From: Olsenella sp. An188
Lineage (GTDB): Bacteria > Actinomycetota > Coriobacteriia > Coriobacteriales > Atopobiaceae
Assembly (NCBI RefSeq): GCF_002160255.1
Contig: NZ_NFKF01000006.1
Span: 62,001-126,000 of the forward strand
Length of the DNA stretch: 64,000 nt
Direction of reading: 5' to 3'
Position 1 is the first letter of the stretch, and every line of letters starts with the position of its first letter. The notes below the pieces were generated by a model. That model made no database searches, had not been told where the DNA came from, and was given only the letters and a program-made list of their open reading frames with translations. The position numbers were made by a program, and so were the translations under genes. Shown one piece after another: positions 17,624 through 44,607 of this stretch.

Positions 17624-17680
17624 TTGTCCTCCGTGAGTCTTGTTTGGGCACGATATTGCTCTTAACAACTATACGGTATT

Positions 17681-17694
17681 GTTTCACATGAAAC
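17681..17694. promoter_or_regulatory. parS-like site
   Basis: GTTTCACATGAAAC, one change from the canonical GTTTCACGTGAAAC. It lies 58 bp upstream of the parA start codon, so ParB bound here could repress its own unit. Confidence 0.85.
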
Positions 17695-17734
17695 GTGCTC
17701 AATGTTGTTCAGGATTGAGACATTCTACTCATAG

Positions 17735-17772
17735 AGAAACCCGGGCGTTTCACGTGAAACGTCCGGGTTTCT
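17735..17772. promoter_or_regulatory. parS site inside a 38-bp palindrome
   Basis: The canonical core GTTTCACGTGAAAC (17747-17760) is centred in a longer palindrome. AGAAACCCGGGC on the left mirrors GTCCGGGTTTCT on the right with one G-T pair. The flanks are not needed for ParB binding in known systems. Confidence 0.85.
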
Positions 17773-17798
17773 GATAATCACATCTATATACTCACTTT

Positions 17799-17812
17799 GT
17801 TTCACGTGAAAC
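17799..17812. promoter_or_regulatory. parS site
   Basis: Exact GTTTCACGTGAAAC, 8 bp beyond the rsmG stop codon. Confidence 0.9.
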
Positions 17813-17819
17813 CAACTAC

Positions 17820-18566
17820 TCACTCCACCCCAAGAGGCTCCTTGCTAGCAAGTCCCACTCTACGAGGGAGCTTGATCTTACTCTTTAACGTCTTTCTATA
17901 CATGAGGATCTCTCGATGTCCAAGTCCATCTCTCAGTTCAAAGGTTTCACGTGAAACAAAGGCCAAACCACAGAGCTTCGCCGCACGTTCGGCACAGGTA
18001 AGTTCCTCTATCTCAGGACGCGCCTTTTGAATGACGAGAAGACCATCCCGACGAAGGAGAGGCGTTGCGTACTCAATGAGGACATTAGACTGCGCAACGG
18101 CCCGAGCAAAGACATAGTCCTGAGATCCAGGAATCTCATGAGCAAGTTCCTCAACACGGGTGTGGCGAGCCTCGAGACCATCAACACCAAGCTCAGAAAT
18201 GAACTCGTTGACTGCCTTCACCTTCTTACCGACAGAGTCAACGAGAAGTCCGTGAGCTCCGGTCATGACACCAAGAGGAATGCCGGGGAAGCCACCACCC
18301 GTGCCAATGTCAAGAAAGGTGGAGGTAGCCTCAAGACGGACGTCTTGGCAGGCCAACGGAAGAAGCGAGTCAACAACATGAAGCGTCACGGCTGAGGAAG
18401 GGTCAACGATCCTCGTGAGATTGACGACCTTATTCTTCTCTATGAGTAGCTCAAGGTGACCAACGAGCTTAGTGGCCTTGTCCTCAGGACAGTCAATGCC
18501 AAACGATCCAAGCTCGCTCATGACCTGAGTAACAAGGGTCAGAGTATTCTTGCAGGGCGTCGTCAT
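17820..18566 (-). CDS. rsmG: 16S rRNA (guanine-527-N7)-methyltransferase RsmG
   Basis: 248 residues. It makes m7G527 in 16S rRNA. The SAM-binding motif FLDIGTGGGFPGIPL (about residue 88), VVDSLLPL and the ARAVAQ motif are typical of RsmG/GidB. GGAG precedes the ATG. The gene sits between jag and parA, the conserved order near bacterial origins. Its 3' half carries a parS site. Confidence 0.95.
   Translation of the reverse strand: MTTPCKNTLTLVTQVMSELGSFGIDCPEDKATKLVGHLELLIEKNKVVNLTRIVDPSSAVTLHVVDSLLPLACQDVRLEATSTFLDIGTGGGFPGIPLGVMTGAHGLLVDSVGKKVKAVNEFISELGVDGLEARHTRVEELAHEIPGSQDYVFARAVAQSNVLIEYATPLLRRDGLLVIQKARPEIEELTCAERAAKLCGLAFVSRETFELRDGLGHREILMYRKTLKSKIKLPRRVGLASKEPLGVE
17944..17957. promoter_or_regulatory. 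parS site within rsmG
   Basis: Exact GTTTCACGTGAAAC inside the rsmG coding region, the fourth site in 277 bp. Confidence 0.9.
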
Positions 18567-21157: not shown

Positions 21158-22213
21158 ATGGCGCGGGACTTCTACCCGTTTGTGGAAAAGGACGGCGAGA
21201 AGGACGCGGCGCAGGAGGATGCCACGGCCTGCGAGGTCCATCACCCGGCGCGCATCGCCGTCTACGACGACGCCTCGGCCGCCCCGCGCGTGGTGGTCAT
21301 AGAGCCGTGCGACGTGCGCGACTACCTCGAGCAGATAACCGCGGCGGTGAACCGCCTCTCGCACGAGCAGGGGGGAACCATCCCCTTCATGGTCATCAGG
21401 GAGATCGTGGAGAACTTCATCCACGCCTACTTCCAGGCGCCCACGATCACCATCCTCGACGGCGGGGACACGATCCGCTTCTCAGACCAGGGCCCGGGCA
21501 TCAAGGAGAAGTCCCTGGCCATGGAGTACGGCACAAGCTCGGCGACCGAGGAGATGAAGCACTACATCCGCGGCGTTGGGAGCGGGCTGCCCTACGTGCA
21601 GCAGTACATGACGGACAAGGGCGGCAGCCTCGAGATAGAGGACAACATTGCCGGGGGCACGGTGGTCACGATCTCCACGCGCCCGCGCGAGGAGGCGCGC
21701 GCCGTCTCCGGGGCGGGCGAGGAGCGCGAGGACGCCACCGTCCCCGAGGTGGCGTGGCAGCAGCCGTGGGCGCAGCAGCCGTGGCCCGGCACCTACCCGC
21801 AGCAGGCCCCCTACCAGCAGGGATACCCCCAGCAGCCGTGGGCGCAGCCGACCGCCGCGCCCGGTGCGTGGCCCCAGGCCGCGCCGGCAGCCCAGCCGTG
21901 GCAGCAGCCGTGGCCCCAGGGGGCGCCGACACCCCAGCAGCCGTGGGCGCAGCCGCAGCCCTGGCCTGGCCCCGCCGAGCCGCAGGCCACGCCGGCGCCG
22001 GCGGTGCCAGCGGTCACGATCGACGAGCGCGGCCACCAGGCGCTCGCGTTTCTCGCCGAGCACGGGGCCGGGGGGCCCACCGAGCTCGTGCGCGCCTTCG
22101 GCTCGTCCGCTGCCACGTGGTCGCGCGCCCTCTCCTCGCTCACGGCGCAGGGTCTCGTGGTCAAGGTCGGCCAGAAGTACCAGCTGACGGCCATCGGCCG
22201 GACGTTCGCCTAG
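21158..22213 (+). CDS. GHKL-fold ATP-binding protein with Pro/Gln/Trp-rich linker and winged-helix C-terminus
   Basis: 351 residues. Residues about 55-175 form a histidine-kinase-like ATPase: N box REIVENFIHAYF, G1 FSDQGPGIKEKSL, G2-like RGVGSGLPYVQQYM. There is no His phosphoacceptor. Residues about 190-285 are a low-complexity linker rich in QQPW/PWAQ repeats. The last 65 residues look like a winged helix (ERGHQALAFLAEHGAGGPTE). It resembles anti-sigma/SpoIIAB-type kinases coupled to a DNA-binding tail. It lies directly between rpmH and dnaA. Exact role unknown. The start has AGAAAGGGGGA upstream. Confidence 0.8.
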   Translation: MARDFYPFVEKDGEKDAAQEDATACEVHHPARIAVYDDASAAPRVVVIEPCDVRDYLEQITAAVNRLSHEQGGTIPFMVIREIVENFIHAYFQAPTITILDGGDTIRFSDQGPGIKEKSLAMEYGTSSATEEMKHYIRGVGSGLPYVQQYMTDKGGSLEIEDNIAGGTVVTISTRPREEARAVSGAGEEREDATVPEVAWQQPWAQQPWPGTYPQQAPYQQGYPQQPWAQPTAAPGAWPQAAPAAQPWQQPWPQGAPTPQQPWAQPQPWPGPAEPQATPAPAVPAVTIDERGHQALAFLAEHGAGGPTELVRAFGSSAATWSRALSSLTAQGLVVKVGQKYQLTAIGRTFA

Positions 22214-22286: not shown

Positions 22287-23852
22287 ATGGAACTCTCCTT
22301 TGAAACGGACGCCGAGGCACTCTGGCAGGACACGCTCGACCTTCTCGCCGGCGAGAACCTCCCCGAGGCGGTGCTCGCCATGCTCAGGAACTGCACGCCG
22401 ACCGGCATGGACGAGGGCGTGCTGCACCTCGAGACGCCGATGAGGCTCGTGCTCAAGACCGTCTCCAAGAACTCCGAGCTGATCGAGGGCGTGCTCTCCA
22501 CCGCCGCCTTCCAGCCGATGAGGCTCGACATCACCTTCGCCCAGGCAAACGCGCAGCCCGCGGCGGCAGCCGCACGGCGATCGACGATGACCCGCGACGA
22601 GGCGGACCGCTGGGCGGCGGAGACCTCGGGCGCGCGTCCGACGCCGCCCGCTCCCGCCGCGAGCGCCTTCATGGAGGACACCTGGGACGAGGGCTCGGCG
22701 GTGGCGGCGCGCGAGGCCGAGAACCGCAGGCGCCGCGAGCGCAACCCCCTCGTGGAGGACATCTCCGCCACGACCTCCAAGCTCACGTTCGACCGCTTCG
22801 TCCGCGGTGACGAGAACGACATCGCCTACCAGGCCGCCCTGCAGGTGGCAAACGGCATGAACAGCACCTACAACCCGCTGTTCATCTACGGGAAGAGCGG
22901 CCTGGGCAAGACCCACCTGCTGCGGGCCGTGCAGAACTACATAGCGCGCAACGACCCGTCGCGCCTGTGCGTCTACCGAGACGCCTCGACCTTCATCACC
23001 GACTACACCGAGGCCATGCGCCACTCCGAGCGCTCGGCCGCCTCGGTCCTGCGCCAAAACTACGCCGACATCGACGTGCTCATCATCGACGACGTCCAGA
23101 AGATGGCCGGCAAGGCGGGCACCATCGGGTTCTTCTTCGACACCTTCAACGAGCTCATCGGCAACGGCAAGCAGATCGTGCTCGCCGCCGACCGGACCCC
23201 GGCGCAGCTCGGCATGGGCAAGGACGGCTTCGACGAGCGCGTGACGAGCCGCCTGGGCTCGGGCTTCACGGCGCCGATCCAGGTCCCGAGCTACGAGCTC
23301 AAGCTTCGTCTCATCGAGACCTTCTGCGAGCGGATGCGCGAGGACGCCCTGCGCGAGAACGTGCCGGCGCTCTCCGGCTCCATCCCCGACTCGGCGCGCC
23401 AGTACATGGCCGAGCGCGCTGGCACCAACATCCGCGTCATCGAGGGCTTCTGCCAGCGCTGCCTGTTTGCGGCCACGACCGCCGAGCGCGCGGGCGGCGA
23501 GCTCAGGCGCGAGGAGATCGAGTCGATAGCCCGAGAGTGCTGGCCGAGCGCCGGCCGCTCCGTCTCCATCGAGGACGTCCAGAGGGCGGTGGAGAAGTAC
23601 TACGACATAGACCACTCGAGCCTCGTGGGAAACAAGCGCCACAAGTCGCTCATGGAGGCCCGCCACGTGGCCATCTGGCTCTCGCGCGAGCTGTGCGACC
23701 GCACGCTCGCCGACATCGGCAAGCACTTCGGCGGCCGCAGCCACGCCACGATCATGCACAGCATCAGCGTCGTGGACGACGCCAAGCGCGAGGACAAGAG
23801 CTTCTACGACCGCCTCATGCAGATCCGCGAGTCGATAACCGGAAACGCGTGA
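22287..23852 (+). CDS. dnaA: Chromosomal replication initiator DnaA (divergent)
   Basis: 521 residues with the usual four domains: I (about 1-90), a variable linker (to about 165), AAA+ (Walker A YGKSGLGKTHLL, Walker B LIIDDVQKM) and a DNA-binding domain from about 420. The AAA+ box VII is unusual: SRLGSGFTAPI instead of SRFxWGL. The DNA-binding signature is GGRSHATI instead of GGRDHTTV, and LPEIG has become LADIG. By alignment to E. coli, R451 equals R399 (kept), A475 equals P423, S485 equals D433 and A487 equals T435. These are base-contacting positions, so box specificity should differ. Confidence 0.95.
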   Translation: MELSFETDAEALWQDTLDLLAGENLPEAVLAMLRNCTPTGMDEGVLHLETPMRLVLKTVSKNSELIEGVLSTAAFQPMRLDITFAQANAQPAAAAARRSTMTRDEADRWAAETSGARPTPPAPAASAFMEDTWDEGSAVAAREAENRRRRERNPLVEDISATTSKLTFDRFVRGDENDIAYQAALQVANGMNSTYNPLFIYGKSGLGKTHLLRAVQNYIARNDPSRLCVYRDASTFITDYTEAMRHSERSAASVLRQNYADIDVLIIDDVQKMAGKAGTIGFFFDTFNELIGNGKQIVLAADRTPAQLGMGKDGFDERVTSRLGSGFTAPIQVPSYELKLRLIETFCERMREDALRENVPALSGSIPDSARQYMAERAGTNIRVIEGFCQRCLFAATTAERAGGELRREEIESIARECWPSAGRSVSIEDVQRAVEKYYDIDHSSLVGNKRHKSLMEARHVAIWLSRELCDRTLADIGKHFGGRSHATIMHSISVVDDAKREDKSFYDRLMQIRESITGNA

Positions 23853-24097
23853 GCGCGGCGTTGTTGAAAACCGTGTCGACATGGTGTCCAGAGGGGGAGA
23901 AAAGCGGTGCGATCGTGTGGAAGGGGTTTTCGACAAGGACCGCGCGTGTTGACGGGCGTTGACGCGCGAGGGGTCGGGCGGGGGTTCTTCTCGCCGGGCG
24001 CTAGCTCGGGCTTTGCCGTGTTTTGTGACTTTTGGACATGCCCTATTACTACTACTGTTCTTTAATGGATATATAGATATAAGAGAAAGGGTCAGCC
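23853..24097 (+). other. Candidate oriC unwinding region between dnaA and dnaN
   Basis: 245 bp. DnaA-box-like sites: TTTTCAACA (23862-23870, -), TTTTCGACA (23927-23935, +), TTTTGGACA (24030-24038, +). Five bases after the last begins CTA-TTA-CTA-CTA-CTG (24043-24057). Its complement is the DnaA-trio pattern (3'-GAT/AAT repeats) known from B. subtilis. An A+T-rich stretch follows to about 24088. A 12-mer repeat (23984-23995) is also here. This is the layout of a bacterial origin unwinding region. Confidence 0.75.
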
Positions 24098-42776: not shown

Positions 42777-43218
42777 GCTCGAGACTTTTCAACGCACTTC
42801 TCGCTGAGCTGGGGATTTCTACAATAACCGCAGGTCAGGAAAGTGTAACCTCAAACCCCGGGTGGCCTCGAGCCGCCCGGGGTTCACTTTTGTTAAGCGG
42901 TGCTGATTAGGCACTCTACCTGCGGTTTTACCAATAGTTACACCCTTTTATATAGAACCTTGAGATTGTCCTCCCCGGGGTCCCAGGGCGTGTCGAAAAA
43001 GTAGAAAAGTGTTGAAAACATGCCTAAACGACCGGGGAAAAATTTGTCGAAAACGTAGAAAGCGAGAGAAACCGCCGTTCAGGCGCAAGGTTCTTCTCGC
43101 CGGGAGTGTCGAAGACCGGGCCTGCGCAAAATGACCCCTTGACAGCCGGGGAAGTTGGTCGTTAGGGCCTCTCACGGGTAGAATGGACGCTCAGGAGAAG
43201 GGCGTGCGAGGGGGCAGC
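42777..43218. other. rplI-dnaB intergenic region with a DnaA-box-like cluster
   Basis: Besides the terminator, minus-strand nonamers TTTTCGACA (42991-42999), TTTTCTACT (43000-43008), TTTTCAACA (43010-43018) and TTTTCGACA (43045-43053), plus weaker CTTTCTACG (43054), cluster within 75 bp. A 12-mer repeat follows (43090-43101). TTGACA at 43139 has no good -10; TTGGTC/TAGAAT (43155, 43179) is an alternative promoter. Two inverted repeats (AACCGCAGGT at 42826 with 42918; GTGTAAC at 42843 with 42937) interlock around the terminator. Confidence 0.7.
42854..42894 (+). terminator. rplI terminator
   Basis: AACCCCGGGTGGC-ctcga-GCCGCCCGGGGTT followed by CACTTTTGTT. Confidence 0.85.
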
Positions 43219-44607
43219 GTGGCACAGGGCGACTACAGCGTTAATCCGACGAGGATGACCATGGGCGAGGGGGCGGCCATGCCCCAGGACCCGGAGGCGG
43301 AGGCCTCGATCCTCTCGGCCATGATGGTCTCGGCGGACGCCCTGCAGGAGTGCCTGATCGACCTTGACCCGGACGACTTCTACCTCCCGTCCAACCGCAC
43401 CGTCTTCGTGGCCATGCGGGAGATGTTCGACAAGAACCTCCCGATCGACACCATCTCGCTCGCCGACTACCTCAAGACCACCGGCGAGCTTGAGCGCGTG
43501 GGCGGCCGCAGCTTCCTGCTGGGCCTGGGCAACAACTCGCTCGCGCTGGTGGGCTGGCGCCGCCACGTGGAGATGCTGCACCGCGACACCACGCTGCGCA
43601 AGATGATCAACGCCGCCGCGCAGATAACGGCGCTCGCCTTCGATGCGCCCGAGGACACCAAGGAGGTCGTGGACAGCGCCGAGCGCCTGCTGCTCGACGT
43701 CACCAACCGCGACGTCAAGGCCGGCGAGCAGTCGCTCGAGGAGATCATGGCCGACCTCTACGAGGACCTCGGCCAGAACGCGGCTAACCCCGGCGGCCAG
43801 CTCGGCGTGTCCACCGGCTTCAAGCGCATCGACGAGTGCCTGCTCGGTCTGCGCCCGGGCCAGATGATCGTCATCGGTGCGCGCCCCGGCGTGGGCAAGA
43901 CGTCGTTCGCCCTCAACCTGGCGACCAACGCGGCCTTTGCCGGCGCCTCCGTGGCGCTCTTCTCGCTCGAGATGTCAAAGGTGGAGATCGCCCAGAGGCT
44001 GCTCGCTGCCGAGGCGCGCGTGGGCCTGCGCGAGATCCGCTCCGCCCACATCCGCGACGACCAGTGGCCGCAGATCCTCGAGGCCACCAACAGCCTCTCG
44101 CAGCTCGACATCATGATCGACGACACTCCGGGAACCACCGTCACCGAGATCCGAGCCAAGGCCCGCCGCATCCTGCACGGCAAGAAGCTCGGCATCGTGA
44201 TCATCGACTACCTCCAGCTCATCTCCCCGCCCGCGGGCGGCCGCCGCGCGGACAGCCGCGCGACCGAGGTCTCCGAGATGAGCCGCGGCATCAAGATCAT
44301 GGCCAAGGACCTCGAGGTCCCGGTCGTGGCGCTCTCCCAGCTCAACCGTACCGTCGAGAACCGCACGGGCAAGCGCCCGCAGCTCTCCGACCTGCGCGAG
44401 TCGGGCTCCATCGAGCAGGACGCCGACATCGTCGCCCTTCTCGACCGCTCGATGAACGAGGACGAGGCCGCCCGCGAGGACCGTCCGGCCATGAACGAGA
44501 CGACGTTCATCATCGCCAAGAACCGCTCCGGCGCGCTCGACGACATCCCGCTGACGTTCCTTCCGGGCTCGACGAAGTTCGTGGAGATCGACGGCTTCCA
44601 CGACTAG
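43219..44607 (+). CDS. dnaB: Replicative DNA helicase DnaB
   Basis: 462 residues from GTG 43219. That start has GAGGGGG at good spacing and lies after the TAGAAT candidate -10; ATG 43183 would add 12 residues without a ribosome binding site. The N-terminal domain starts PQDPEAEASILSAMMVS. RecA-like core: Walker A GARPGVGKTSFALN, VALFSLEMSK, Walker B IVIIDYLQLI, SQLNRTVENR and LRESGSIEQDAD. No intein is present. A cluster of DnaA-box-like sites lies directly upstream. Confidence 0.96.
   Translation: MAQGDYSVNPTRMTMGEGAAMPQDPEAEASILSAMMVSADALQECLIDLDPDDFYLPSNRTVFVAMREMFDKNLPIDTISLADYLKTTGELERVGGRSFLLGLGNNSLALVGWRRHVEMLHRDTTLRKMINAAAQITALAFDAPEDTKEVVDSAERLLLDVTNRDVKAGEQSLEEIMADLYEDLGQNAANPGGQLGVSTGFKRIDECLLGLRPGQMIVIGARPGVGKTSFALNLATNAAFAGASVALFSLEMSKVEIAQRLLAAEARVGLREIRSAHIRDDQWPQILEATNSLSQLDIMIDDTPGTTVTEIRAKARRILHGKKLGIVIIDYLQLISPPAGGRRADSRATEVSEMSRGIKIMAKDLEVPVVALSQLNRTVENRTGKRPQLSDLRESGSIEQDADIVALLDRSMNEDEAAREDRPAMNETTFIIAKNRSGALDDIPLTFLPGSTKFVEIDGFHD

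Follow-up and report, generated by a model that had tools for sequence, protein, structure and literature searches.

A tight cluster of 9-mers resembling DnaA boxes stands in front of the replicative helicase gene of Olsenella sp. An188, raising the question of whether these sites serve the control of dnaB, the control of the initiator itself, or neither. All coordinates below refer to the window, the whole stretch of 64,000 nucleotides from this genome that was analyzed.

Arrangement and rarity of predicted DnaA boxes upstream of dnaB

The gene behind the cluster was identified as dnaB (43219 to 44607, plus strand) by the domains PF03796 and PF00772, in agreement with the original prediction, and its upstream neighbor is rplI, encoding ribosomal protein L9 (42249 to 42776, plus strand). 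The dnaB open reading frame opens at 43183; alignment and a ribosome-binding site suggest that translation probably starts at GTG 43219 rather than at ATG 43183. The array occupies positions 42991 to 43062 inside the rplI-dnaB gap and comprises three copies of TTTTCNACA and two degenerate copies, all on the minus strand and head-to-tail. The four minus-strand sites originally proposed were recovered at exactly the coordinates given for them: a predicted DnaA box, TTTTCGACA, at 42991 to 42999; a degenerate predicted box abutting it, TTTTCTACT, at 43000 to 43008; the predicted box TTTTCAACA at 43010 to 43018; and a second predicted TTTTCGACA at 43045 to 43053. The weaker site placed after the fourth is CTTTCTACG, abutting it at 43054 to 43062. 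Start-to-start spacings of the five sites are 9, 10, 35, and 9 bp, the first two being the 9- to 10-bp steps already described, and the distance to the dnaA-dnaN gap (23853 to 24097) is the 19 kb to oriC that had been stated. A further DnaA-box-like sequence, TTTTCAACG (42786 to 42794, plus strand), directly follows the rplI stop and is conserved in near relatives.

In the window, TTTTCNACA occurs nine times against 0.22 expected, and none of 100 shuffles reached nine. Within the rplI-dnaB gap it was observed three times against 0.026 expected and TTTTCNAC five times against 0.15, counts that none of 20,000 exact dinucleotide shuffles reached in either case. The whole genome (2,136,169 bases) holds 17 copies of TTTTCNACA, compared with six for a reversed-pattern control, and nine of the 17 fall in the window, near oriC/dnaA or in the dnaB array. 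Same-strand pairs with a gap of 0 to 30 occur three times genome-wide, all in the dnaB array (control, one). The array therefore has what marks a DnaA box cluster, namely, several host-type 9-mers, above chance, within about 100 bp.

Conservation of the array among Atopobiaceae

The dnaB relatives examined were the best 80 of 107 confirmed loci, the closest of those listed coming from Olsenella, Thermophilibacter, and other Atopobiaceae. An rplI match lies upstream in 78; the other two loci (L053 and L055) end too soon on that side to be informative, so that with the window 79 rplI-dnaB gaps could be compared. The genomes sampled throughout are related and not independent, and one appears twice (as G146 and G028, with identical coordinates). 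The conservation in relatives that had been named as a check on the cluster was borne out: among the listed gaps of at least 300 bp, minus-strand TTTTCNAC[AG] was present in 64/64, with two or more copies in 58/64. Gaps of 97 to 234 bp among the matches listed had it in 0/15, and a relaxed pattern found one site in the 2,249 bases of these short gaps together. The 15 short-gap genomes need not form one clade. Because every one of the 78 listed relatives with an rplI match carries rplI ahead of dnaB, the nearness of the array to dnaB is not independent evidence.

Three of the sites make up a recurrent core. The box at 43010 corresponds to conserved box 1 of Atopobiaceae and that at 43045 to conserved box 2, the two being separated by 34 or 35 bp, a spacing seen in 36 pairs in the listed gaps (11 at 34 bp and 25 at 35 bp). 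Box 3 (43054) forms a zero-gap tandem with box 2, and the corresponding 9-bp spacing was likewise counted 36 times; at the box 3 position many relatives carry TTTTCGACG, TTTTCAACG, or similar. Spacings of 43 to 46 bp are the sum of the recurrent spacings or a variant. The box at 42991 is an extra upstream box, and a third or fourth box is present in some relatives. The side-by-side binding suggested earlier is compatible with the conserved 9-bp tandem; the constant 34/35 bp had been missed.

In a close-pair search of 24 genomes, 20 gave some match, several of them with matches away from dnaB. Twelve of the 15 array-bearing genomes searched had the 9-bp tandem a single time, at dnaB, as TTTTCAACATTTTCAAC in G021 and TTTTCNACGTTTTCNAC in the remaining 11; the wider pair alone was found at dnaB in G002, G023, and G025. 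In an 8-mer count that did not presuppose the motif, the TGTNGAAA word came first or second at dnaB, in the dnaA-dnaN gap, and upstream of dnaA: TGTTGAAA was second in the listed dnaB upstream regions (54/79, after CGCAGGTA with 47/79 at the top of the ranking) and first in dnaA upstream regions (20/27), and TGTCGAAA was second in dnaA-dnaN gaps (21/31), where the trio word TAGTAATA was first. In the short-gap genome G241, four tandem copies of TTTTCGAC in 9- to 10-bp steps (L227, 2061 to 2096) overlap open frames away from dnaA and dnaB, possibly by chance or as coding sequence.

Predicted boxes upstream of dnaB in other families

The sister family of Atopobiaceae in this sample, f3, is probably Coriobacteriaceae, although this is a guess. 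A cluster was present in 11/12 of its dnaB regions, mostly of the canonical TTWTCCACA type, with TTTTCCACA or TTATCCACA prominent. Allowing one-mismatch sites, a pair 32 to 34 bp apart was found in 10/12, the 9-bp tandem in 10/12, and an inverted box downstream in 9/12. A class-level survey of the 450 bp before dnaB with the pattern TTNTCNAC found two or more sites in 5/5 further f1 genomes, some site in 5/10 of f2, and one or two sites in f8 (2/2), f10 (1/1), and f4 (1/1); this pattern was absent from the 450 bp in f5 (0/4), f9 (0/2), f11 (0/1), f12 (0/1), and f14 (0/1). With one mismatch to TTWTCCACA, f14 had two sites, f12 one, and f9 one in each genome. The families f4, f5, f8, f9, f10, f11, f12, and f14 lie outside the order. 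At the phylum level, a box was found in the 1 kb before dnaB in 6/20 other families, with 10 sites against about 1.6 expected (one of the 20 stretches was 602 bases long). Boxes before dnaB are thus recurrent across the phylum and not universal.

Promoter and other conserved elements of the gap

TAGAAT at 43179 to 43184 (plus strand) is the likely -10 element of the dnaB promoter, TAGAAT or GATAAT being aligned there in near relatives. Using narrow patterns, 28/64 of the listed loci had a -10 (TAGAAT, GATAAT, or similar) no more than 90 bases ahead of the dnaB match, a count that misses the TAGAAT of the window itself, which overlaps the open reading frame start. A conserved block, AAAATGACCCCTTGACAG (43128 to 43145), contains a TTGACA whose start is 94 bp away from box 2. 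In 26/64 of the genomes listed, a box and a TTGACA, the latter usually part of a CCCCTTGACA block, are separated by 92 to 94 bp, with anything from 44 to 500 bp between this TTGACA and the dnaB match. A -10-like hexamer follows the TTGACA in only 1/26, so it was rejected as a -35 element, and the block is perhaps the site of a second protein. In five relatives (L008, L010, L011, L023, and L025) an intact array is separated from the dnaB -10 by roughly 150 to 400 bp of additional sequence. A fixed box-to-dnaB geometry, which is expected of a regulator in contact with the promoter although it does not strictly define one, was accordingly not found. As the array and the block in near relatives hold their own geometry at a variable distance from dnaB, direct promoter contact is weakened and a locus resembling datA is kept alive as an alternative.

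The distal part of the gap holds further conserved words. TTTCTACAA (42816 to 42824, plus strand) lies in a loop flanked by imperfectly matching inverted arms and is DnaA-box-like without being a full match; any role for it would be conjectural. Elsewhere, at about 593 to 628 of L125 (G000:C2:7718), a lone intergenic TTTTCAACA lies near GGGATTTCTACAA, a word also present in the pre-dnaB hairpin loop. ACCGCAGGTCAG (42827 to 42838, plus strand) is a conserved non-DnaA motif whose inverted partner, ACCGCAGGTAGA (42915 to 42926, minus strand), is 86 to 88 bp away in most near relatives, and CCGCAGGTCAG also occurs upstream of dnaB in G052, a genome of another family. A conserved inverted ACCGCAGGT pair is thereby seen at 42803 to 42838 and 42915 to 42926. 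In L027 to L032 the ACCGCAGGT copy nearest dnaB is in plus orientation, which makes the pair likelier to be a DNA motif than an RNA switch; Rfam returned tRNAs alone at gathering scores in the window, and nothing in the dnaB gap came near the gathering score. CCGCAGGT words also occur inside a palindromic repeat scattered over this genome (L112, L117, L120, L121, and L122), roughly 100 to 130 bases long with ends GGTTGTCAGTGG / CCACTGACAACC and core CCGCAGGTCAGAAAATG, which had no match above chance in Rfam.

Possible control of dnaB or of the initiator

The reading we prefer, at a probability of roughly 45%, is that the array before dnaB serves as a regulatory module bound by DnaA. That DnaA binds the sites is very probable from their sequence; that their target is dnaB transcription is a more tentative step, with somewhat under an even chance, and activation as the sign of the effect is a guess taken from Mycobacterium tuberculosis. 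With box 1 and the abutting boxes 2 and 3 all pointing the same way, DnaA would occupy these three sites and might assemble into a short head-to-tail oligomer; most likely dnaB transcription would then respond to how much DnaA is present or to its nucleotide state, and helicase supply could thereby be coupled to initiation. The conserved upstream boxes expected of a DnaA-regulated dnaB promoter are present (64/64 long and 0/15 short gaps among those listed, and 11/12 in f3).

The geometry of the locus is at odds with the precedents published for dnaB, which favor transcription, and on the strength of these precedents control of dnaB is ranked above control of the initiator. Binding of DnaA in front of dnaB is reported for M. 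tuberculosis from in vitro work and for Mycobacterium smegmatis from ChIP-seq, and an I282T DnaA mutant showed less binding there together with underexpression of dnaB (PMC7738170). Shared with Olsenella is the location of DnaA sites before the helicase gene; in that account they belong to the small set of strong sites in the genome. The mycobacterial evidence described there is binding by IDAP-seq and ChIP-seq, with a peak at Rv0057, whereas the present case is built on sequence and concerns the rplI-dnaB gap; unlike that described for mycobacteria, the array also has a recurrent head-to-tail layout of 34/35 and 9 bp and a noncanonical box (PMC7738170). Caulobacter crescentus likewise has predicted DnaA boxes upstream of dnaB, which a review places in the DnaA regulon; the evidence cited there is of expression, and the likeness is limited to the presence of boxes (PMC8203912). 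In Bacillus subtilis a handful of box clusters, some of which regulate genes, are strong DnaA-binding regions, but the helicase gene is not among the ten strongest that the source names (PMC4447404).

Several observations count against control of dnaB: the extra DNA in five genomes would be hard to tolerate for a promoter-contacting regulator, 15 listed relatives keep rplI-dnaB without the array, and the conserved TTGACA lacks a -10 (1/26). A less probable but still serious alternative is a near-origin locus of the datA or DnaA-box-cluster type, in which a complex of the array with another factor, bound at the CCCCTTGACA block, would titrate DnaA or alter its nucleotide state soon after duplication of the region, with dnaB a mere neighbor. 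Boxes 1 to 3 are codirectional, as are the essential boxes of Escherichia coli datA in the published description, and datA too lies close to oriC (PMC5742627). The comparison concerns box direction and location; datA itself is described as working with an IHF site between its boxes (PMC5742627), and stimulated ATP hydrolysis is a further mark of it. The same alternative is favored by the constant 92 to 94 bp between box and TTGACA in 26/64 listed genomes while the distance from TTGACA to dnaB runs from 44 to 500 bp, and by the restriction of the 9-bp tandem to a single copy, at dnaB, in 12/15 array-bearing genomes searched. However, the array has only three to five boxes and no known partner factor, it adjoins dnaB wherever it was found, and the DnaA precedents at dnaB favor transcription; moreover, it is absent from the short-gap relatives, in which no replacement was identified (the four tandem TTTTCGAC copies of G241 lie elsewhere).

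A DARS-like reset site, another option raised in the original prediction, is disfavored. E. coli DARS1 and DARS2 resemble the array in having a compact three-box core with fixed spacing, but box I is described as inverted relative to II and III (PMC5742627, PMC4585315), whereas boxes 1 to 3 here are codirectional and 34/35 and 9 bp apart. In the DARS1 of one E. coli record (L221) the boxes stand at +784, -798, and -810, 14 and 12 bp apart, by our own assignment of boxes I to III, two of which are one mismatch off; neither the inverted box nor the 14/12-bp layout was found at dnaB.

DnaA sequence and box specificity

The residues of E. coli DnaA that contact bases are R399, P423, D433, H434, T435, and H439 (PMC7561715). 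The window dnaA (22287 to 23852, plus strand) encodes the recognition helix GGRSHAT, compared with GGRDHTT in E. coli; aligned to 1j1v, which fixes the register of residue 433 (the numbering being our own assignment), the protein carries P423A, D433S, and T435A and retains R399, H434, and H439. Residue 433 is D in 0/35 Atopobiaceae DnaA sequences, being mostly S and in some T, K, or V (one genome is counted twice in the 35, and one further DnaA was missed by the motif); among 25 DnaA sequences of other families it is D in 24 and N in one. The boxes differ between Atopobiaceae and f3, those at dnaB and those near dnaA in concert: position 6 is C in 1/129 versus 19/28 sites at dnaB (Fisher P = 9e-17) and in 8/113 versus 7/21 near dnaA (Fisher P = 0.0025), kinship being ignored in both tests.

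That residues 433/435 cause the family difference in the box can be suggested from these sequences, and incompletely. DnaA was read in six of seven further short-gap genomes, with T433 and A435 in 6/6; the dnaA-dnaN gaps of nine short-gap genomes yielded seven sites, 3/7 with C at position 6 and 4/7 with G at position 3. As T433/A435 occurs alongside C at position 6, these two residues do not determine the box by themselves; because of this misfit, both a change of specificity and binding by DnaA were graded slightly lower, and the case for a different regulator slightly higher. A more far-reaching reading, speculative and on balance unlikely, is that array-bearing Atopobiaceae have undergone a natural change in DnaA specificity (P423/D433/T435 to A/S/A here, with position 6 rarely C), the sites near dnaA and dnaB having moved along, and that the dnaB module is a self-contained near-origin element of DnaA control with a partner protein at the CCCCTTGACA block and a constant internal geometry whatever its distance from dnaB. 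Searches of open-licence papers found nothing on coevolution of DnaA or the DnaA box with DNA-binding specificity, nothing under the three-letter names of the DnaA contact residues, nothing relevant for the Olsenella oriC, and, for DnaA boxes in Coriobacteria, a single paper, on DciA.

It is improbable that another regulator with a DnaA-box-like motif owns the sites. Short-gap relatives do carry the palindrome GATTGTTGAAAACGTTTTCGACAATC, exactly or nearly, before several short open reading frames, and it resembles the operator of a dimeric repressor; the 9-mers at dnaB, however, are asymmetric and tandem, the homologous place in f3 genomes holds the textbook TTWTCCACA, and the same motif marks the dnaA region. 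In L222 to L226, from short-gap relatives, a repeated promoter family with a GATTGTTGAAAACGTTTTCGACAATC-like palindrome and TATAGT precedes a very short open reading frame with a strong ribosome-binding site. We presume that these may be small peptide loci of the type I toxin-antitoxin kind.

Probable location of the replication origin

The gene following dnaA is taken to be dnaN from its position. The intervening gap (23853 to 24097) is likely the unwinding unit of oriC, as two boxes (23862, minus strand; 23927, plus strand) and a run of DnaA-trios (24043 to 24054, minus strand) occur there together with the 60-bp stretch of lowest stability in the window. Runs of at least three DnaA-trios were found in 28/30 dnaA loci. 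A gene for a protein with HATPase_c and winged-helix domains (21158 to 22213) separates dnaA from the rpmH side of oriC, with box-like sites in the gap upstream of this gene. Several palindromes of the TTTCACGTGAAA type occur at 17670 to 17960, presumably the parS sites expected near parA/parB.

That unwinding takes place upstream of dnaB, whether at a second origin or at an outlying part of oriC, is very improbable. The boxes there do accompany a fairly unstable 60-bp stretch (42906 to 42965), sixth among the least stable windows, but no DnaA-trio beside an unstable element was found at the array: the trio-like TAGTARTA matched in 1/81 dnaB regions (L014) against trio runs at 28/30 dnaA loci, the least stable DNA of the window is the dnaA-dnaN gap and not the dnaB gap, and TTTTATATAGAA is exact in 6/19 aligned near relatives, the window included. 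That the sites are relicts with no present function is scarcely credible, as their absence from 15/79 of the listed gaps is outweighed by the recurrent spacing, their presence in 64/64 listed long gaps, and their retention through insertions on the dnaB side.

Implications for helicase supply and initiator evolution

DnaA binding near dnaB was already known from a few model bacteria. The array shows a recurrent architecture across a family, with natural absences (15 relatives listed) and natural displacements (five), and with boxes that vary between families together with those near dnaA. The locus opens the questions of whether bacteria couple helicase supply to the initiator and of how an essential initiator may shift its DNA preference and yet keep its sites.
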